Source: Gammaproteobacteria bacterium
GTDB lineage: Bacteria > Pseudomonadota > Gammaproteobacteria > Acidiferrobacterales > Sulfurifustaceae
DNA: 64,000 nt
Direction: 5' to 3'
NCBI GenBank assembly: GCA_016199745.1
Contig: JACQFZ010000051.1
Coordinates: 1-64,000 of the forward strand
Position numbers and translations under genes: made by a program. This document shows, one piece after another, positions 4,246-14,242 of this stretch. The number at the start of each line of letters is the position of its first letter. Positions within the stretch are counted from its first letter, which is position 1. Under the pieces are notes generated by a model that saw only the letters and a list, made by a program, of their open reading frames with translations, was not told the DNA's origin and did not search any database.

Positions 4246-4510
4246 TGTTCGGCGGTTTCCTTTGCCACTTCACTAATTTCAATCGTCGTAATAGGAGCGA
4301 ATTACGAGCTCCCAGCGAGCGGCCACCTTACCATCGGCCGTCAGGAGCGTCATACCGTGACAGCTGTGAGGGCACTGCTAAACTTTTGTATCCGCTCGAG
4401 ATTGGTTGCGGCAAGCGCTTACAAATGGCAGTCGAGCCTACGTCGGTTAGCCGTTTGAGGCATGAATCTTGCGAGAAATACGTCGATTCGTCCACGAGGG
4501 GCGTTTTTGT

Positions 4511-7096
4511 ATGTTGGGGTCCACGGAGAAGGGCAAACCCTTCGCCAGCAGCATCCGCCGGTCGAAGGGGCGATCGCTCAGTCGGCGGGTCGTCACTGCT
4601 ATTTTATTATGCAGCACTGTTTTTGCGCTGATCGCGACCGGCGTACAGCTGCTATTGGATTACCGGCGCGACGTTTCCGAGATCGAAGTGCGCATGCTCA
4701 ACATCGAGCGTTCCTATGTCGAGAGTGTCTCGGTTGCGTTATGGGACTTCGACATGCGGCAGATTCGTACGCAGATTGAAGGCATCCGTCGCTTGCCGGA
4801 CATTCGCTTCGTGTTGTTGCGCGACGCCAGCGGCGACATCGTCGATCAGGTGGGTGCGCGGCCGGAAAAGTTCGACATTATCCATCGGGAAATGCCGGTG
4901 GTGTTCATCAAAGATAATGCGGCGCGGGATCACGTTCCGTTGGGTACGCTGATAATCGACGCCTCGCTCGACGATGTTTATCAACGTCTAGGCGACAAGG
5001 TCCTGGTCATTCTCGTCACGCAGACCATCAAGACATTCGTCGTTTCGCTATTCATCCTTTTTATTTTCAATCGACTCGTCAGTCAGCATTTGACGGTGAT
5101 GGCGCGTTATGCCAGCCGGCTCGATATGAGTAATTTGGGCGAGCAGTTGGTGTTGCCGAGAAAAAAATTGCCACAGCCGGATGAGTTCGACGTGTTGGTA
5201 TCGGCGATCAATAACATGAGCGCTTCGATTCGACACGATGTCGATGAGTTAACGCGCTATCGCGCGCATTTGGAAGAAGTGGTGACCGACCGCACTTCCG
5301 AGCTGGGACAGAAAGTCAGCGAGCTGAAGACAGTGGTGCACCGGCTCAATAATGAAATCAACGAGCGCGAGTTGGCCGAGCGCACGTTGCGTGAAGGTGA
5401 GGAACGCTATCGCCAATTGGTCGAGATGTCGCCCGACGCGATCATGATCGAGCGCGACAGTAGTATCGTTTTCGCCAACGGCGCGACGTTGCGTTTGCTC
5501 GGCGCAGCATCGGCCGAGCAAGTGCTGGGCCGGCCGACGTTGGAACTGGTGCCGCCGGAATGGCACACGGCGACGTGCGAGCAGATACAAAAGTTATTGC
5601 AGGGCGGACGCGAGTTGCGGTTGATGGAGGCGAAGATGCGCCGGGTCGACGGTACCGACATCGACGTCGAAGTGACGCGCGCGGCGTTTCAGTATGCCGG
5701 CCAAGCGGCGATTCAGACGGTGGTTCACGACATCACTCGCCACAAGCAATTCGAAGAGCAATTGCGTCATCAGGCGTTGTACGACGCCTTGACCGGTTTA
5801 CCGAACCGCACATTGTTGATGGACCGGTTGCAACAGGCGATGATCTTGGCCGAACGGCAGCGCCGTCACATCACTGTTGTCTTCATCGATCTCGATCGCT
5901 TCAAGCTGGTCAACGATAGCCTCGGCCACGACGCCGGTGACGAGCTGCTGCGTACGGTTACGCGGCGGATGTCGGCGCATATACGCAAGAGCGATACGCT
6001 GGCGCGTTTGGGCGGCGACGAATTCATTCTGTTGTTAGCCGATGTCCTGGACGAAGCGGCGTTGTCGAATTTATTGCAGCGTTTCACCGGCGCCATTTCC
6101 AGCCCCATCATTCTGCATGGCCAAGAAATCACGCTGACCTGCAGCATCGGTTGCAGTACCTACCCGCAAGACGGTAACGACGCCGGTACCTTGCTCAAGC
6201 ACGCTGATACCGCGATGTATAAGGCCAAGGAAAGCGGGCGCAACAACGTCAAATGTTATCGCGCCGACATGTATACGCGCGTCAGCGAGCAACTGGTCAT
6301 GGAATCCGGCCTGCGCCGCGCGTTGGAGCGCGACGAGTTGTTACTGCATTATCAACCGCAACTCGATCTGCGCAGCGGTGCCGTCGTCGGTATCGAAGCG
6401 CTGATTCGCTGGCGCCATCCCGAGCTCGGTTTAGTCGCGCCCGGTCGGTTCATTCCACTGGCCGAAGAAACCGGCCTGATTGCGCCGATTGGCGAATGGG
6501 TCATTCGCACCGCCTGTGCGCAGGCGCGTGCCTGGCAACGAGCCGGCCTGGCGCCGATACGCATGGCGGTTAATCTGTCGATGCATCAGCTGGTACAGGC
6601 GAGCCTCGAGGCTCAAGTCGGGCGTGCGTTGGTCGATTCCGGTTTGGCGGCCGAATATTTGGAATTCGAAATCACCGAAAGCATGTCGATGAACGACCCC
6701 GAGCTCACGCTCCATATCCTGACGCGATTGAAGGCCATGGGCACCAGCATCGCCATCGATGATTTCGGTTGCGGCTACTCCAACTTGGGGTACTTGAAAC
6801 GTTTTCCGGTCGATCGAATCAAGCTCGACCGCTCGTTCGTGTCCGATCTGGTACGCGAATCCGATGACGGTGCGATCGCCAAAGCCATTATCGGTATGGC
6901 TCACAGCCTACATCTGCCGGTTGTCGCCGAAGGCGTGGAGCATCGTGAGCAGCTAACATTGTTGTTGGCGTACGGTTGCGATGAAATGCAGGGCTATTAT
7001 TACAGTCCACCGCTGCCGGCCGATGAATGTGCGAAGCTGCTGCGTTCGGGCAGAATACTCGATGTTTCGGTGGCCCGGCGTGGCATTCTTAAATGA
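4511..7096 (+). CDS. Membrane-bound sensor with PAS, GGDEF and EAL domains
   Basis: Likely makes and/or degrades the second messenger cyclic di-GMP. The 861-residue protein has a first membrane segment at about 26-48, a periplasmic sensor region of some 120 residues, a second membrane segment near 170-195, a HAMP-like linker, one PAS domain (roughly 300-410), a GGDEF domain (intact LGGDEF, G501-F505) and an EAL domain (intact EAL at 629-631). Both active-site signatures are complete, so it may be bifunctional. I chose ATG 4511 because AGGGG lies 9 nt upstream; a TTG at 4469 would add 14 residues. The next gene starts 16 bp after its stop and encodes a periplasmic binding protein, which may feed this sensor. 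Confidence 0.93.
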   Translation: MLGSTEKGKPFASSIRRSKGRSLSRRVVTAILLCSTVFALIATGVQLLLDYRRDVSEIEVRMLNIERSYVESVSVALWDFDMRQIRTQIEGIRRLPDIRFVLLRDASGDIVDQVGARPEKFDIIHREMPVVFIKDNAARDHVPLGTLIIDASLDDVYQRLGDKVLVILVTQTIKTFVVSLFILFIFNRLVSQHLTVMARYASRLDMSNLGEQLVLPRKKLPQPDEFDVLVSAINNMSASIRHDVDELTRYRAHLEEVVTDRTSELGQKVSELKTVVHRLNNEINERELAERTLREGEERYRQLVEMSPDAIMIERDSSIVFANGATLRLLGAASAEQVLGRPTLELVPPEWHTATCEQIQKLLQGGRELRLMEAKMRRVDGTDIDVEVTRAAFQYAGQAAIQTVVHDITRHKQFEEQLRHQALYDALTGLPNRTLLMDRLQQAMILAERQRRHITVVFIDLDRFKLVNDSLGHDAGDELLRTVTRRMSAHIRKSDTLARLGGDEFILLLADVLDEAALSNLLQRFTGAISSPIILHGQEITLTCSIGCSTYPQDGNDAGTLLKHADTAMYKAKESGRNNVKCYRADMYTRVSEQLVMESGLRRALERDELLLHYQPQLDLRSGAVVGIEALIRWRHPELGLVAPGRFIPLAEETGLIAPIGEWVIRTACAQARAWQRAGLAPIRMAVNLSMHQLVQASLEAQVGRALVDSGLAAEYLEFEITESMSMNDPELTLHILTRLKAMGTSIAIDDFGCGYSNLGYLKRFPVDRIKLDRSFVSDLVRESDDGAIAKAIIGMAHSLHLPVVAEGVEHREQLTLLLAYGCDEMQGYYYSPPLPADECAKLLRSGRILDVSVARRGILK

Positions 7097-7112
7097 TGGA
7101 ATGGAGAAACCC

Positions 7113-7868
7113 ATGTTGACTCAGCGCTGTCGTTCGGTCGTTGCCTGTTTAGCGTTTTTTGCCGCAGTGCTATTCGCATTTCCGGCGTCGGCCGCGGATT
7201 CGCTGCGACTGGTTTCCACCGAATTTCCGCCCTATACCGGCAAGTCGTTAGCGCACGGTGGTATCGCCACCGAGATCGCCACCGAAGCGTTCAAACGTGC
7301 CGGCTATAGCGTGAAGGTGGAATTTCTTCCGTGGGCGCGTGCTTTGCAGGTGGGCCAGACCGGCAAGGTCGACGGCATCGTCGGTATCTGGCACAGCAAA
7401 GAGCGCGAACAATGGTTCGATTTTCGGGAACCGCTGTTGCCGAACTCCATCGGCTTTTACAAGCGCAGCGGTACCTCGGTGGCATACCAGTCAGTCGCCG
7501 ATCTCGCGTCGTACAGCGTCGGCGTAGTCCGCAGCTACGCCAATCCAGAAGTGTTCAACAATGCCAAAAAATTGCGTGTGGAAGAGGTGGTCGATGACGA
7601 AACGAATCTGCGCAAGCTCGGCGCCGGTCGCATCGACCTGGTCTTGATCGACAAGGGGGTGGCGCGCTATCTGCTCGACACCTCGTTGCCCGACCTTAAC
7701 GGCAAGATCGAATGGATCGGGCCGGCCGTTGCCGAAATGCCGCTGTATGTCGCCTTTTCAAAGAATGCCGCCGACCATGAAAAGAAATCGGCTGCCTTCG
7801 ACCGCGGGTTTAAAGCGTTGCAGAAGGATGGAACGTTGAAGAAGCTGCTGAGCAAATACGGCTTATAG
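7113..7868 (+). CDS. Periplasmic solute-binding protein, family 3 (orphan)
   Basis: 251-residue secreted protein with a signal peptide (CLAFFAAVLFAFPASA, cleavage near residue 28) and the family 3 fold typical of amino-acid ABC transport (RLVSTEFPPYTG at the mature N-terminus; a WHSKEREQWFDFREPL segment). The start is the ATG at 7113, with GGAG 7 nt upstream. No ABC permease or ATPase is nearby. It lies 16 bp behind the GGDEF-EAL gene, so it may sense a ligand for that enzyme rather than import it; that is inference. The ligand is unknown. Confidence 0.88.
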   Translation: MLTQRCRSVVACLAFFAAVLFAFPASAADSLRLVSTEFPPYTGKSLAHGGIATEIATEAFKRAGYSVKVEFLPWARALQVGQTGKVDGIVGIWHSKEREQWFDFREPLLPNSIGFYKRSGTSVAYQSVADLASYSVGVVRSYANPEVFNNAKKLRVEEVVDDETNLRKLGAGRIDLVLIDKGVARYLLDTSLPDLNGKIEWIGPAVAEMPLYVAFSKNAADHEKKSAAFDRGFKALQKDGTLKKLLSKYGL

Positions 7869-7893: not shown

Positions 7894-8919
7894 TTAAGCT
7901 TCCATTGTTGCCGGCCGGCTTGCCAGCCCGAACACCAGCAGCCGTTGAATAAATTCCTCGTAGCTCATACCGGCCTTGACGGCCGATAGCGTGCAGTCCT
8001 CATCGCGGGCGATGCCGGGGTTGGGGTTGGCCTCGAGCACGTTTAACTTGTCGTCCGGTGTCAGCCGTAGATCGATGCGGGCATAGCCGTTCAAGTCGAG
8101 CGCGCGGTAAATGCGCTTGCACAGTTGTGTGACTCTAGTGGCGATCGGCGGCGCCAAGCGTGCGAACTGGTATTCGATCTGCCAGCGCGAGCGATATTGT
8201 TCGTCCCACTTTACTTTATAAGTCGCAAGCTTCGGCACGCCTTGGCTGTTGTCGCCGAAGACCAGCTCGCGCACCGGCAGCACTTCGAGCTTGCGATTGC
8301 CGATTACGGTGACGTACAGCTCGCGCCCGTCGATGTACTGCTCGGCGATGGCGTCGCCCTTGAACTTCTCGTGGATCAATTGCACGCGCTCGCGCAGCTC
8401 GCTTTCGTTCTCGACGTACGACGCCTGGGCGATACCGACCGAGCCTTCCTCGAGTAGCGACTTGACGATCATCGGAAAGCGCAACCGGCGCATGCGACCG
8501 ATGCGCTGGCCGTAGGGGAAGACAATGAAATCGGGTACGTTGACGCGATGGTAGGCAAGAATTTTTTTTGATAGCGCTTTATCGCGCGCCAGCAGTAGGC
8601 CGCGCGGATTACAACCGGTGTACGGCAGCTTCATCATCGCCAGATAACTGACGACGTAGTAATCGAATGCGCTATTGCCGGCGAAATCTTCGAGCAGGTT
8701 GAAGGCGATGTGCGGTTTCCATTCTTCGATGGTTTTGCGGATCGGCGTAAGGTCGTCGTATACGCCGACGACTTTTACCTCGTGTCCAAGCTTGAGCAAC
8801 GCCTGCTTGACGTCGAACTCGGTGCGAAATTTCTCCATGCGCGGATCGTCCGCGTCCTTCAGATCTTCCGGCGGCACCAGCGAGTAGTGCACCAGCATCA
8901 GCACGCGCATCTTCTTCAT
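7894..8919 (-). CDS. ATP-grasp ligase, D-Ala-D-Ala ligase/RimK-like
   Basis: 341-residue ATP-grasp enzyme. Such enzymes activate a carboxylate with ATP as an acyl phosphate and join it to an amine or thiol. Visible features: an N-terminal Rossmann-like half (MRVLMLVHY), an ATP-binding middle (PMIVKSLLEEGSVGIAQ) and the metal-binding end motif LEANPNPG near 295-302. The ATG at 8919 overlaps the upstream metallopeptidase stop by 4 bp (ATGA), implying translational coupling. The substrate is unknown. It is not a normal Ddl, since no cell-wall genes are near and the sequence differs. It is the third gene of a TraB/metallopeptidase/ligase operon. Confidence 0.85.
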   Translation of the reverse strand: MKKMRVLMLVHYSLVPPEDLKDADDPRMEKFRTEFDVKQALLKLGHEVKVVGVYDDLTPIRKTIEEWKPHIAFNLLEDFAGNSAFDYYVVSYLAMMKLPYTGCNPRGLLLARDKALSKKILAYHRVNVPDFIVFPYGQRIGRMRRLRFPMIVKSLLEEGSVGIAQASYVENESELRERVQLIHEKFKGDAIAEQYIDGRELYVTVIGNRKLEVLPVRELVFGDNSQGVPKLATYKVKWDEQYRSRWQIEYQFARLAPPIATRVTQLCKRIYRALDLNGYARIDLRLTPDDKLNVLEANPNPGIARDEDCTLSAVKAGMSYEEFIQRLLVFGLASRPATMEA

Positions 8920-10088
8920 AAGGTGACGCGAAAACCGCCGGTGTGTAGTTTGTTCATGACGACCGTCGTCAAGTAGACGGTAATATCGGGTTTCATAGCG
9001 GTATCGTCCTTGGCAACGCGCAATCCGAGTGCGTCGCAACGTGCGACCATCTCCCTAAGTACTTCGCTGATGCGGTAGTTATATTCCGATGTCCAGCGCG
9101 AGACGATGTCGATTATCTCCGAGCGGTTCCGGCGAATATAGTGCGACGCGCGCTCGTTGTGCTTGTGTTCATCGGTGGCGGAGAACAAGCGCGACAGGTC
9201 GGCGTCGAAGAATTCGGGTTGATCTCGGCGGTAGCGTTTTTGTTTGTCGGTGTAGTATTCGCGCAGCGTCATCTTCAGCTCGCGCAGCGGCAACACCAAG
9301 CGACGATTACTGAGTCGCGGTGTCTTCGTTTGAATTTCCGGCATCAAACGATCGACGTACTCGAGTTTTTTCAGCGCCGGCCAATCGCGATAGCGTTTGC
9401 GCCAATCGAGGTTGGGCGTGAGCCAGACGGCGAAGGTCTCGGCCCAATCTTCGTGCGGGTGACTTTGCGCGTACCAGTTCGGCAGGTGCGCGACGAAGCG
9501 TTTGCTGTGCGGTCGCGGAACGTAGGTGTCCGGGTACCGTTCGCTCGAGCGACCGAAGTGCTGCTGCCAGTCGCGCCGACGGTGCAATTCATAAGCGTTG
9601 AGCAGGGCGTGACCGGCCTCGTGGCGCAACAACTTCAGACAATCGTTGTGCGAACCGCCTTCGACTTCGAGCATGCGTTCTTGCTCGAGCCGTTTGAGCC
9701 GCGGGTGCGCGAGAAAAAACGGAATGGCGATGCCGGGCACGCCGTCCGGACTGAACCACTCGTCCGACAGCCAACAGTGCGGCCGAAACTTGAAGCCGCG
9801 GCGCTTGAGCTCGGCGTGCAAGCGACGGACGCGTCTGGACAGCTCGGTGCCTTCGATACGCAGCGGTAAATCTGCGATGCGCAGATCGAGCAGGCGCTCG
9901 ATCGATAAGTCGGCCCATAGCCGCGGAACGCGACGCGCCCGGCGGACGACGCGCTTACGTGCACGCTTCGGCCGACGCTTGCTGACGCGGCGGCGGGTGG
10001 TGGTACGGCGTACCCGTTTGCGCGCACGCACGCGCTTGCGCGGACGGCGGCGCGTGCTGGGGCGGCGAGGGCGGCGCTTGCTGGCCAC
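8916..10088 (-). CDS. Putative zinc metallopeptidase with Arg-rich N-terminal tail
   Basis: 390-residue protein. The first 53 residues (from the chosen GTG) hold about 32 Arg or Lys, in runs broken by Pro, Val, Thr and Ser, like a histone-tail or nucleic-acid-binding extension. The rest resembles putative zinc-binding metallopeptidases: HEAGH at about 156-160 would supply two His ligands and the catalytic Glu, and EDWAE at about 213-217 a third ligand. No signal peptide or membrane segment is seen. The start is uncertain: GTG 10088 lies 7 bp after the traB-like stop, while the frame stays open upstream to 10175 inside that gene. It is coupled to the ATP-grasp gene by an ATGA overlap. The substrate is unknown. 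Confidence 0.75.
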   Translation of the reverse strand: MASKRRPRRPSTRRRPRKRVRARKRVRRTTTRRRVSKRRPKRARKRVVRRARRVPRLWADLSIERLLDLRIADLPLRIEGTELSRRVRRLHAELKRRGFKFRPHCWLSDEWFSPDGVPGIAIPFFLAHPRLKRLEQERMLEVEGGSHNDCLKLLRHEAGHALLNAYELHRRRDWQQHFGRSSERYPDTYVPRPHSKRFVAHLPNWYAQSHPHEDWAETFAVWLTPNLDWRKRYRDWPALKKLEYVDRLMPEIQTKTPRLSNRRLVLPLRELKMTLREYYTDKQKRYRRDQPEFFDADLSRLFSATDEHKHNERASHYIRRNRSEIIDIVSRWTSEYNYRISEVLREMVARCDALGLRVAKDDTAMKPDITVYLTTVVMNKLHTGGFRVTL

Positions 10089-10095
10089 GCGGCGA

Positions 10096-11007
10096 TTAGT
10101 AAACCATAGTGACGCGATAACCTTTGCGTTCGAGCAGCGCCAGCACACCGTCGGCGCCGCCGAGATGGGCGGCACCGATGGCGATGAAGGCGTTGCCTTC
10201 TTTGAGACGCGGTTCCATGCGCTCGACCATGCGCGGGTTGCGATCTTGCAGCAACCGTTTCATCAGCGCGTCGTGCATGTGCGCATCTTGCGGCCGGCTG
10301 TCGTTCATCAGCGCGGCTATGCCGGCGAGATCGCGTGCGAGGTAAGCGCGTGTCAGCTGTTCCATCTGTGGTTTGATGGTGGCGCGATCACGCACTGTTT
10401 CTTTCAGCAGTTGCACTTGGTCCGCCTCCGACAGTCCATCGAACACCGCCACTTGCTCGGCGATGGTCTCTAAACCGTACACCGGTTTACCGGCGGTTGT
10501 CGCCTGTTGTTGCAGCTGCAAATCGAGCGCGACACCGCTGGGTGTGAGGAACATCGTCGCTACGACCCAGGGTTTTTGTTTTTCGAGCAGCTCGGTCGAC
10601 AACCCGAATTCTTGCATCGCCCGACGAGTCTCGGTATATAGCGCCTCGCCGAGCACCGACGGCAGGGTACGCTCGTCGAGATAAAGCATGCGCTCAGCCA
10701 GTGTCGTTATGGCGGCGGCATCGAGCAATGCTTCGATGGTCAAGCTGGTGGTCTGTGCCAGCGATTGCTGTACCGGTGCCGATAGATTGAGTACACGTTG
10801 ATCGGCGCTGTGCAGCGTACCGAAAACGAAGCTGGGTTTACCGATCGGCGGTGTGATGCGCCAAAGCAGGCCCTGCTCGAAACGCTTGGCCGCTTCGACA
10901 CGGGTCGTGGCGGTCGCCGTCGACGTCGCCAGCACCGGCATGCCGCTCGACATCCCTAAGAAGGTTGCGCTGAGCCACAGCAGCAGTGCGCGCGCGCGGG
11001 TGTTCAT
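10096..11007 (-). CDS. TraB/GumN family protein, secreted
   Basis: 303 residues with a signal peptide (LLLWLSATFLGMSSGMPVLA). The TraB/GumN hallmarks are present: SFVFGTLHSAD near the N-terminus and IAIGAAHLGGADGVLALLERKGY near the C-terminus. The family is proposed to be metallo-hydrolases or proteases related to Tiki and ChaN-like folds, but bacterial substrates are mostly unknown. It is the first gene of the operon with the Arg-rich metallopeptidase and ATP-grasp ligase. Its promoter must lie in the short divergent gap shared with the MipA-like gene. Confidence 0.87.
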   Translation of the reverse strand: MNTRARALLLWLSATFLGMSSGMPVLATSTATATTRVEAAKRFEQGLLWRITPPIGKPSFVFGTLHSADQRVLNLSAPVQQSLAQTTSLTIEALLDAAAITTLAERMLYLDERTLPSVLGEALYTETRRAMQEFGLSTELLEKQKPWVVATMFLTPSGVALDLQLQQQATTAGKPVYGLETIAEQVAVFDGLSEADQVQLLKETVRDRATIKPQMEQLTRAYLARDLAGIAALMNDSRPQDAHMHDALMKRLLQDRNPRMVERMEPRLKEGNAFIAIGAAHLGGADGVLALLERKGYRVTMVY

Positions 11008-11057
11008 AACGACCGTCCCTTTTGGTTTATTAGCATTATAGGCAGGTGATACGTAAC

Positions 11058-11900
11058 ATGCGGAATATGCACAAAATAATCATTCGCTGTGGGTTGCTGT
11101 TGGTGGCGCTGTCGTCATTGGCCGCACACGGTGCCGAGCTGCCGCTGTGGGAGGCTGGACTCGGTGTTGCCGGTCTTAGCATTCCCGATTATCGCGGCTC
11201 GGACGAGCGCTCGCAGTTCCTGCTGCCGTTGCCTTATGTGGTCTATCGCGGTGAGAACTGGAAGGTCGACCGCGAAGGGCTGCGCGGCGACCTATTTCGT
11301 AGCAACCGGCTACGGCTCGACCTGAGCTTCAGCGCCGGGCCGCCGTCGAAAAGCGACGATGACGACGGCGCGCGTGCCGGTATGCCCGAACTCGACCCGA
11401 CGTTCGAGGCCGGACCGGCGCTGCGCATCCAGCTCGACGATCGCGAGCAAGACGACCAGCGCTGGTCGCTGGTGCTGCCGGTGCGCTGGGTGGCGGCGAG
11501 CGATTTCCGGCATGCCGAATCGCTCGGCTGGGTATTCTCGCCGTACCTGCGTTATGCCCGGCGCGATCTGATTCCCGGTTGGACGCTCGATAGCTCGATC
11601 GGTTTTATGTACGCCGGCGAGCGTTACCATAATTATTATTATGATGTGACCGACGAATTCGCTACGCCGGCGCGCCCGGCCTACGACGCCGGCCGCGGAT
11701 ACAGCGGCAGCCGCGTGACTGCTGCTATCAGTAAACGCTTCGATCGTTTCTGGGTCGGCGGTTTCGTGCGTTACGACTATCTCGGCGGTGCGGTTTTCGA
11801 CGATAGCCCATTGGTGCGTACCGATCATTCGTTGATGATCGGCGGCGGCATCGCTTGGATTTTCGCGCGTTCCGCCGAGACCGTACCGTCTCTGCAATAG
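11058..11900 (+). CDS. MipA/OmpV family outer-membrane protein
   Basis: 280-residue beta-barrel protein with a signal peptide (LLLVALSSLAAHGAE). Family features include GVAGLSIPDYRGSDERS after the signal, PYVVYRG, and alternating aromatic strands ending in GGGIAWIFAR. MipA in E. coli links murein hydrolases and synthases; OmpV-type proteins are also induced by envelope stress, so the role here is only an inference. I chose ATG 11058 because AGGTGAT, a good anti-SD complement, ends 7 nt upstream; a GTG at 11046 would add four residues. It is divergent from the TraB-like gene. Confidence 0.87.
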   Translation: MRNMHKIIIRCGLLLVALSSLAAHGAELPLWEAGLGVAGLSIPDYRGSDERSQFLLPLPYVVYRGENWKVDREGLRGDLFRSNRLRLDLSFSAGPPSKSDDDDGARAGMPELDPTFEAGPALRIQLDDREQDDQRWSLVLPVRWVAASDFRHAESLGWVFSPYLRYARRDLIPGWTLDSSIGFMYAGERYHNYYYDVTDEFATPARPAYDAGRGYSGSRVTAAISKRFDRFWVGGFVRYDYLGGAVFDDSPLVRTDHSLMIGGGIAWIFARSAETVPSLQ

Positions 11901-11924
11901 CTTTGTTTCTGGTAACATCGACGT

Positions 11925-13031
11925 ATGTCTGGCAATACCCACGGTAAACTCTTTACCGTCACCACCGCTGGCGAATCGCATGGCCCCGCTTATGTGGCCA
12001 TCGTCGATGGTTGCCCGCCGGGGCTCGAGCTGTCGGAAGCCGATATTCAACCCGAGCTCGACCGGCGCAAGCCCGGCAAGTCGCGTCATGTCACACAGCG
12101 ACGCGAGGAAGATAAGGTAAAGATTCTTTCTGGTGTCTACCAAGGCAAGACCACCGGCACGCCGATCGGTTTGCTGATCGAGAACACCGACCAGCGCTCG
12201 CAAGATTACTCGAAGATTGCCGAGCGTTTTCGTCCCGGGCACGCCGATTACACCTATCAACAGAAATACGGTATCCGCGATCCACGCGGCGGCGGCCGCG
12301 CGTCGGCGCGCGAGACGGCGATGCGCGTCGCTGCCGGTGCCATTGCCAAGAAATGGTTGCGTGTGCGCTACGGTACGGTGGTGCGTGGTTATCTGGCGCA
12401 GCTCGGGCCGATACATTGCGCGCTGAAAGATTGGGCGGCGGTCGAGCAGAACCCGTTCTTCTGCCCCGATCCGGCCAAGGTCGACGAGCTCGAAGCCTAC
12501 ATGGACGCGTTGCGCAAAGAAGGCGAGTCGATCGGCGCGCGCATCGATGTGATCGCGTCGAACGTGCCGGTGGGGCTCGGTGAACCGGTATTCGATCGGC
12601 TCGACGCCGACATCGCCTATGCAATGATGGGCATTAACGCCGTGAAGGGCGTCGAGGTCGGCGCCGGCTTTCGCGCGATCGAGCAGAAAGGGACGGTGCA
12701 CCGCGACGAGATCACCCCGCAAGGTTTTCTATCGAACAACGCCGGCGGTATTCTCGGTGGCATCTCCACCGGTCAGGACGTGCTCGTCAGTATCGCGCTC
12801 AAGCCGACCTCGAGTATCCGTTTGCCCGGCCACACGATCGACGTGCATGGCACGCCGGTCGATGTCATCACTACCGGCCGTCATGATCCATGCGTTGGTG
12901 TTCGCGCAACGCCGATCGCCGAAGCGATGCTGGCGTTGGTGTTGATGGACCATGCATTACGGCATCGTGCGCAGAATGCCGACGTCGATTCTGTAACCCC
13001 GGTGGTCCCTGCACAAGTGCCCTCGAAGTAA
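11925..13031 (+). CDS. aroC: Chorismate synthase
   Basis: Converts EPSP to chorismate using reduced FMN, the last common step of aromatic amino acid synthesis, in the cytoplasm. The 368-residue protein has the family length and signatures: [19 protein letters not shown], the [14 protein letters not shown] segment, [18 protein letters not shown], and the C-terminal [11 protein letters not shown]. The ATG start lies 24 bp after the MipA-like gene and gives the expected N-terminus ([19 protein letters not shown]). Confidence 0.98.
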
Positions 13032-13084
13032 CGCCGTCGTTTACTTCAGTCTGGTAGTCGCAGTGCTGTATTTCATCGGAGATT

Positions 13085-14242
13085 GTGGTGCGCCTGCCAG
13101 GCTTGAATAAAACCTACCTACGGTTATCCAGCTTTTATCTCTTCTACTTCGCCGCACTGGGTGTGCTCGCGCCGTATTGGAGCCTTTATCTCCAGTCGCT
13201 CGGCTTCGGGCCGGTGGCGATCGGTCAACTGATGGCGGTTCTTATGTTCTCGCGCATCGTTGCACCGAACGTGTGGGGTTGGTTGGCGGATCATCGTGAG
13301 CGGCGCATGCAGGTGGTGCGTTGGTCGACGTTGTGCGCCTGGCTTTCGTTCGCCGCGATTTTTTTCGGCAGTGGTTTTTGGTGGATTGCGTTGGTCATGC
13401 TGGTGTTCAGTTTCTTCTGGCACGCGTCGTTACCGTTGCTGGAAGTGACGACGATGAATCAAGTCGGTCGATGCGCCGGCGCGTATGGACGCGTTCGCTT
13501 GTGGGGATCGCTCGGTTTCATCGTCACCGTCGTCGGGCTGGGCGTGGTGATCGATTACTACGGACCGACGTGGGTACCGCCGGCGCTGTTCGCATTGATG
13601 ATCAGTATCTGGTTAACGAGCTTATCGCTGCCTGAAGCCGCCGCGCCGCCGGCGACGGAGGCGCCGACGCCGTTGCGGCAGGCGTTGCTACGGCCGGAAG
13701 TGCTCGCCTTTCTAATCGCTGGCGTGCTCATGCAGGTCAGTCATGGGCCGTACTACACGTTCTATTCGATTTATCTCACCGATTTCGGTTACGACGAAAC
13801 GCTCGTCGGCGTCTTGTGGGCGTTGGGTGTGGTTTGCGAGATCGGCGTGTTTTTGCTGATGCAGCGTTTGTTACAGCGCGTCGAGCTGCGCGTCGTGTTG
13901 TTGGCGAGTTTTCTGCTGGCGACGTTGCGTTGGTTGTTGATCGGTTACTTTCCGCAGTGGCTCAGCGTGCTCGTTTTCGCGCAAACGCTGCATGCCGCGA
14001 CCTTCGGCGCGTTTCACGCAACCGCTATTCAGTTCGTGCATCGCTTTTTTACCGGCCGTCATCAGCATCGCGGCCAAGCGTTGTACGGTAGTATCAGTTT
14101 CGGCTTGGGTGGGGCGGTCGGCAGTCTTTACAGCGGCTACGCTTGGGGCAGTGTCGGGCCGAGTGGTTCGTTTGCGATTGCCGCTGCCGCGGCATTGGCG
14201 GCATTCGTCGTGGCGTGGATCGGGCTTAAGCCCAAGTCTTGA
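13085..14242 (+). CDS. MFS transporter, HcaT/MFS_1-like
   Basis: 385-residue inner-membrane protein with about 12 predicted hydrophobic segments. It shows the MFS_1-like (HcaT/LacY-related) pattern: YLFYFAALGVLAPYWSLYL in the first helix and GWLADHRERR in the first cytoplasmic loop. The family imports aromatic acids or sugars in some bacteria; the substrate here is unknown. The start is one of two adjacent GTG codons (13085 or 13088), with GGAGA just upstream. It lies 53 bp after aroC, and its 3' end overlaps the convergent 138-residue gene by 17 bp. Confidence 0.9.
   Translation: MVRLPGLNKTYLRLSSFYLFYFAALGVLAPYWSLYLQSLGFGPVAIGQLMAVLMFSRIVAPNVWGWLADHRERRMQVVRWSTLCAWLSFAAIFFGSGFWWIALVMLVFSFFWHASLPLLEVTTMNQVGRCAGAYGRVRLWGSLGFIVTVVGLGVVIDYYGPTWVPPALFALMISIWLTSLSLPEAAAPPATEAPTPLRQALLRPEVLAFLIAGVLMQVSHGPYYTFYSIYLTDFGYDETLVGVLWALGVVCEIGVFLLMQRLLQRVELRVVLLASFLLATLRWLLIGYFPQWLSVLVFAQTLHAATFGAFHATAIQFVHRFFTGRHQHRGQALYGSISFGLGGAVGSLYSGYAWGSVGPSGSFAIAAAAALAAFVVAWIGLKPKS

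Follow-up and report, generated by a model that had tools for sequence, protein, structure and literature searches.

The head-to-tail arrangement of a predicted zinc metallopeptidase gene and an ATP-grasp ligase gene, with a TraB/GumN-type gene just upstream of them, raises the question of which of these three genes belong together and what they might do. They are found in the 64,000-nucleotide stretch of DNA analysed here (hereafter the window), taken from contig JACQFZ010000051.1 of assembly GCA_016199745.1, a Gammaproteobacteria bacterium of the family Sulfurifustaceae. A sequence-only reading of this DNA had presented them as a three-gene operon in which a ligase stands beside two proteases. 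Of that claim the association of ligase and peptidase stands, across phyla, and the inclusion of TraB does not: the conserved unit consists of two genes, a Peptidase_Mx zinc peptidase (P0002) followed by an ATP-grasp ligase (P0001) with the fold of D-alanine–D-alanine ligases (Ddl).

A peptidase–ligase pair inherited as a unit

The distribution of the pair was first of all read from the contigs of named genomes, by scanning the best 80 of 381 relatives; most of these records are metagenome bins, their phyla were taken from the record titles, and the distribution so obtained leans towards close relatives and gives minimum figures. In 77 of these 80 loci the gene immediately behind that of the peptidase, and on the same strand, is the ligase gene. 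Among the three exceptions, one (L085) stops at a contig border and the other two (L056 and L058) lack a ligase at this place; both of these genomes carry the ligase elsewhere, with no peptidase match in the 13–14 kb around it (L165, L166). At least 12 named phyla are represented (Pseudomonadota 21, Planctomycetota 21, Nitrospirota 11, Acidobacteriota 10, Gemmatimonadota 7, Myxococcota 3, six others with one locus each, and one record without a phylum). The overlap between the two genes amounts to exactly 4 nucleotides in 80 of 97 loci, a count in which gene starts were assigned by script and at least four places occur twice (L023/L039, L024/L042, L026/L043 and L088/L174); the spacing in the other 17 ranges from −16 to +216 nucleotides. 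That the pair is present or absent as a unit and keeps its 4-nucleotide overlap in a dozen phyla argues strongly for a single biochemical job common to its members.

Searches of whole genomes, in which scoring was confined to the top 5 to 7 candidates of a first pass per genome and whose three samples overlap in some genomes, are in line with co-inheritance. Strong relatives of the peptidase occur in 12 of 274 genomes of the class (weak ones in four other genomes) and strong relatives of the ligase (>500 bits) in 11, below which the scores of ATP-grasp proteins drop to 171 bits; all 11 are among the 12 with the peptidase, and the contig of the twelfth genome ends inside the ligase gene. Within 398 genomes of Pseudomonadota, strong peptidase matches were found in nine and the ligase (E <1e-50) in the same nine, while 20 further genomes have only weak and short peptidase matches around the zinc motif. 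The clearest single result is the all-or-none pattern in a sample of 60 genomes of one genus of Pseudomonadota: peptidase (E 1e-30) and ligase (E 1e-60) occur in the same 30 genomes, adjacent by coordinates in every one, and the remaining 30 have neither, so that none carries one alone. In that genus the upstream flank, compared by eye, is common to six of eight loci and differs in L168 and L173 with the pair intact; the pair therefore keeps together while its surroundings change. Closer to the window, the peptidase was found in 19 of the 20 sampled genomes of the same bacterial family.

Tree distances of the two proteins are correlated as well (r 0.86 over 90 rows; the highest value that 1000 label permutations gave was 0.18; the set omits L023, L024, L026, L042, L060, L077, L083, L085 and L094 together with segments of 250 residues or fewer). 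On plasmids, five records match P0001 at just 31–33% identity and are not members of the family. One Nitrospira genome, that of L088, has two high-scoring ligase copies (476 and 455 bits, on contigs C34 and C134). The earlier remark that no described pathway has these three genes is in line, as far as the pair is concerned, with our literature search, in which none of the papers surveyed deals with it.

The ligase and the peptidase

The AlphaFold model of P0001 (predicted local distance difference test, pLDDT, 91) adopts the Ddl fold, with Z 32.9 and a root-mean-square deviation (rmsd) of 2.7 over 308 aligned residues; its best structural match, at that same Z, is a D-Ala:D-Lac ligase, with Ddls tied just below. 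The sequence-only reading had proposed such a structure prediction for the ATP-grasp protein, and what it returned is the fold of a Ddl in a protein that, judged by score and motifs, is not the housekeeping enzyme. Matches to Ddl models (E 1e-5) are present in all 57 members of the ligase alignment (A3; P0001 and 56 relatives chosen for length and spread from about 100 loci). P0001 reaches only 126.4 bits on the NCBIfam Ddl model NF002378, whose cut-off is 243, and falls below every curated cut-off compared. The window's genome has its own Ddl, which scores 427.8 bits on the same Ddl model and is encoded on another contig; its neighbours, named by eye, are an adjacent murB-like gene and, at a greater distance, ftsZ- and lpxC-like genes.

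The ligase family was compared with a set of five Ddls or Ddl-like proteins (four above the Ddl cut-off), and the motifs were read off the Ddls. Across the 57-member alignment GGxSxERE, HGxxGEDG and PGMTxxSL, which in Ddl have their roles at the D-Ala sites, are replaced. K114, K153, R281, D283, E296 and N298 are kept when the family is aligned with the Ddls, and presumably serve at the ATP and magnesium site as their counterparts do in Ddl. As the three Ddl motifs are replaced, the plain inference is that the ligase acts on a substrate pair other than that of Ddl. The counterpart of the substrate-amine glutamate of Ddl (E15) could not be fixed, and E34, a candidate for it, was not borne out by the alignment.

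P0002 matches the Peptidase_Mx model at 2.1e-7 (31.1 bits, with a cut-off of 27), and the same model is matched at E 0.001 by all 62 sequences of the peptidase alignment (A4; P0002 and 61 relatives selected in the same way). H156, E157, H160, Y206 and E213, that is the HExxH motif and a Tyr-x6-Glu motif, are invariant in the 62 sequences. The model of P0002 (pLDDT 82) has a zincin core at residues 81–255, similar to M34-type proteases and Pro-Pro endopeptidases (PPEPs). The consulted part of a study of PPEP-3 gives HExxH, Tyr190 and Glu197 for that enzyme and describes PPEPs as secreted (PMC12828418). The spacing of Tyr206 and Glu213 in P0002 is thus the same as in PPEP-3. Their secretion sets PPEPs apart from P0002, which is probably cytoplasmic; phmmer found no zincin sequence match to P0002, PPEPs included, and the match to them is one of fold. 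By profile comparison, the peptidase family is related to another Peptidase_Mx group (probability 95.9), the COG4307 type; the zinc ribbon PF10005, present in three of three COG4307-type relatives scanned, is missing from P0002.

The peptidase had also been described as Arg-tailed. An arginine-rich stretch does exist, at the N-terminus; it is specific to a lineage and is not a feature of the family. The first 57 residues of P0002 include 33 lysines or arginines and no acidic residue. Within one bacterial family such a tail varies from none (L256, L257) to 123 residues with 77 lysines or arginines, and therefore it cannot be essential to the pair; it was dropped as a family hallmark, and it may help to bind an acidic partner where it occurs. 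The 123-residue tail, that of L253, is likewise devoid of acidic residues. L246, of the same family as L252 and L253, starts with a 157-residue extension holding 61 lysines or arginines, and the extension of L252 is also long and rich in lysine and arginine, although its start may be over-read upstream. A mean computed by script (21% Lys/Arg and 9% Asp/Glu) was not used, since the anchor misplaced L081, L097, L106, L110 and L114 and the choice of starts was rough.

TraB and the other neighbours

In the window, the three genes follow one another as the sequence-only reading had it, by open reading frame (ORF) calls and translations: the TraB/GumN gene comes first, 7 bp separate its TAA (ending at 10096) from the GTG of the peptidase gene (10088), and the TGA stop of the latter (8918–8916) overlaps the ATG of the ligase gene (8919–8917) as ATGA (Table 1). 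The assignments to TraB/GumN, zinc metallopeptidase and ATP-grasp families hold equally, being those of Pfam (198.9 bits for TraB/GumN, with a cut-off of 26.8).

Table 1. Features of the peptidase–ligase locus, in coordinates of the window
Feature	Position	Strand	Support
P0001, an ATP-grasp ligase of 341 aa with Ddl fold; downstream member of the conserved pair	7894..8919	-	PF07478 (Dala_Dala_lig_C) 1.5e-27
Peptidase_Mx-type zinc metallopeptidase (P0002, 390 aa), GTG start; upstream member of the conserved pair; HExxH at 156-160	8916..10088	-	PF15887
ATGA stop/start overlap of the peptidase and ligase genes	8916..8919	-	sequence; same 4-nt overlap in 80/97 loci
Lys/Arg-rich N-terminal tail of P0002, residues 1-57, lineage-specific	9918..10088	-	33/57 K/R
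TraB/PrgY/GumN protein (303 aa), signal-like N-terminus; upstream neighbour, judged outside the conserved unit	10096..11007	-	PF01963 1.9e-58

TraB is a regional bystander, found upstream of the pair in part of the window's order. A profile built from four TraB proteins detected such a gene near the pair in just two of the 80 named loci (L036 and L053, both from the window's order), nine of which have less than 1.3 kb of upstream sequence, and also in L028, from the same family. All 27 loci examined in the order have the pair; TraB adjoins it in 15, and two begin at a contig end, which leaves 15 of 25. TraB does not adjoin the pair in L248, the only other sampled genome of the window's genus, and the window's genome has no second TraB match. 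The search for the same triplet in other genomes, which had been suggested as a check, thus recovers it in part of one order only, and the three-gene operon was dropped as a conserved unit. A signal-peptide-like N-terminus is seen by eye in TraB and in neither of the other two proteins, as had been noted. The system spanning two compartments that was built on this observation is unsupported, since TraB lies outside the conserved system.

In 91 loci (within 7 kb, ORFs of at least 70 residues) the pair has no third companion gene at a constant position. A group of ABC ATPases, named by eye, comes near the pair in 10 of the 91 at scattered positions, and a third conserved neighbour was dropped from consideration because the recurrences are confined to related loci or are scattered common genes. 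A precursor-peptide gene, also sought on the suggestion of the sequence-only reading, did not emerge: among small ORFs (20–90 residues, about 1.2 kb on either side) each of the twelve largest groups is restricted to a single genus, and such groups carry no weight because flanking genes are conserved within a genus anyway. Memo-like and AMMECR1-like genes lie within a few kb of the pair, downstream in L036:13027–15489 and L108:12531–13986, both from the window's order, and upstream in the acidobacterial loci L065:6669–8170 and L069:6871–8568; in L036 a radical SAM gene comes after them. With four loci in two phyla, and a fifth (L048) not borne out, this link was left as chance or weak.

As for the window itself, the genes at 4469–7868 and 11046–14242 encode a CHASE5-PAS-GGDEF-EAL protein, a family 3 solute-binding protein, a MipA protein and an MFS transporter; the solute-binding protein gene converges on the ligase gene, the MipA gene diverges from TraB, and a chorismate synthase-like ORF (named by eye) was noted at 11925–13031. 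A scan for promoters and terminators gave nothing clearly exceeding shuffled sequence. PADLOC gave no match for TraB, peptidase or ligase, and a defence-system reading was dropped on that ground.

What the pair may do

Two bacterial systems offer points of comparison. According to the sections consulted of two reports, RimK extends RpsF with glutamates, which RimB removes while also stimulating polyglutamate synthesis by RimK (PMC11957791, PMC12239564). RimK–RimB, like the RimBK hybrid, resembles our pair in that an ATP-grasp ligase and a protease are encoded together. RimB, however, is an aspartic retropepsin, whereas the partner in our pair is an HExxH zinc protein of Peptidase_Mx type, and P0001 obtains 36.6 bits on the rimK_fam model, whose cut-off of 143.4 is reached by no match in the window's genome. 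For the Anbu operons, the portions consulted of two papers propose, without proof, peptide synthesis or protein tagging, with peptide tags being made and cut, the physiological substrates being unknown to their authors (PMC5666114, PMC6376114). Such an operon comprises an ATP-grasp protein, Alpha-E, a transglutaminase and Anbu, with a COG4307-type Peptidase_Mx in some genomes, and the resemblance to our pair lies in a Peptidase_Mx beside amide-forming enzymes. P0001 differs in matching PF07478 and not the circularly permuted models, P0002 in the missing zinc ribbon, and the pair in having no recurring third gene; no Anbu-type gene is present among the four window neighbours scanned, the whole window and the individual loci not having been scanned for them.

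Among our own loci, L032 has a COG4307-type relative in one stretch with genes for a circularly permuted ATP-grasp protein, Alpha-E, transglutaminase, DUF2126 and an Anbu-like proteasome protein. At least one gene of the Anbu-type ligase cluster was found near a COG4307-type relative in seven of 25 loci, and a peptide-ligase setting was dropped as a general property of these relatives on that count. Next to the Anbu cluster of L032, and beside a GNAT–histone-deacetylase-like protein, a gene for a methyltransferase–ATP-grasp fusion shares 4 nucleotides with the gene of an M32 carboxypeptidase (L032:720–5966). The ATP-grasp part is Ddl-like and 30% identical to P0001 over 317 residues, and the overlap is as in the window; the peptidase family, the gene order (ligase first) and the extra methyltransferase domain differ. 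Two ATP-grasp genes of Ddl-like type, at L210:3953–9249 and L216:368–4180, neighbour a lysine-2,3-aminomutase-like radical SAM gene, with a histone-deacetylase-like gene as well in L210, and this is possibly another uncharacterised amide-ligase cluster.

The best reading of these data, for which we see about an even chance, is that the two genes form a ligase–peptidase module in which opposing activities would set a steady state as in RimK–RimB, TraB being a bystander. Both proteins would be cytoplasmic and produced by translational coupling. The ligase would activate a carboxylate with ATP and form an amide bond to an amine acceptor, its substrates probably being other than two D-Ala and its product either a small peptide or a protein with added residues; the peptidase would then cut the bond made by the ligase, or trim the product, much as RimB acts on the glutamates added by RimK. 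The 4-nucleotide overlap, together with a ligase seen only in peptidase-bearing genomes at the thresholds used, fits such a make-and-remove cycle. The Peptidase_Mx relatives that lie in ligase clusters, in seven of the 25 COG4307-type loci, also speak for it. Several points weigh against it. We know of no substrate, product or phenotype for any member of either family, and the correlation of the two trees is in part shared species history. The structural match of P0002 is a moderate one (Z 9.5, with an rmsd of 3.1 for 135 residues), plain Foldseek gave it no confident match (best E 0.11), and its solved fold relatives include endopeptidases, the PPEPs. In 18 of the 25 COG4307-type loci none of the ligase-cluster genes sought lies in the fetched stretch. 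Finally, the peptidase could supply the substrate of the ligase rather than act on its product.

This last point is the core of a salvage pathway, in which the peptidase would break proteins or cell-wall fragments down to amino acids or small peptides and the ligase would rejoin these into a useful dipeptide or precursor, so that the peptidase feeds the ligase instead of opposing it. The position of the peptidase as first gene of the pair and the aptness of a Ddl fold for dipeptide synthesis speak for salvage; with no transporter, wall-recycling or amino-acid gene at a fixed place within 7 kb in the 91 loci, we regard it as unlikely, though worth keeping in view. A pathway for a small metabolite, in which the peptidase would degrade, when it is not needed, a dipeptide-like compatible solute or signal made by the ligase, would suit a pair that is absent as a unit from half of the genomes of one genus (30 of 60) and that varies in its contexts, as a self-contained accessory pathway might. 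However, the 91 loci show no conserved companion gene for export, regulation or a further biosynthetic step, and a fold shared with endopeptidases would be an odd choice for a dipeptide, which makes such a pathway rather improbable.

Two further explanations fare far worse. An envelope system of three genes, in which a periplasmic TraB acts on the same substrate, draws on the adjoining TraB genes in 15 of 25 loci of the order and on the 7-bp spacing in the window; the scarcity of TraB among the named loci and its separation from the pair in L248 leave it very little room. That the ATP-grasp gene is a spare D-alanine–D-alanine ligase would explain the fold and the Ddl-model matches throughout the family, but a score far short of both the cut-off and the genome's own Ddl, combined with the replacement of three motifs, makes this hardly credible, and it was dropped.

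Within the favoured ligase–peptidase module, it is tempting to consider a write-and-erase system in which the ligase would add one or more amino acids, without a template, to a cytoplasmic protein and the zinc peptidase would remove them. The excerpts consulted describe, in eukaryotes, ATP-grasp ligases that add residues to tubulin (PMC4431377) and metallocarboxypeptidases that trim tubulin tails (PMC10499314). Any likeness of the window pair to tubulin modification, or to RimK–RimB, is at most one of analogy, and we hold this more specific version as a tentative and, on present evidence, unlikely one. If true, the pair would be a zinc-peptidase counterpart of RimK–RimB, with the Anbu-linked Peptidase_Mx as its sister. 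Modules of a ligase and a peptidase are already known; the present one is set apart by ligase and peptidase families of its own and by a broad distribution in which the two are strictly paired. Since the peptidase family is also found beside Anbu, solving the simpler two-gene system, which is small enough for a direct test, could show what these peptidases cut.

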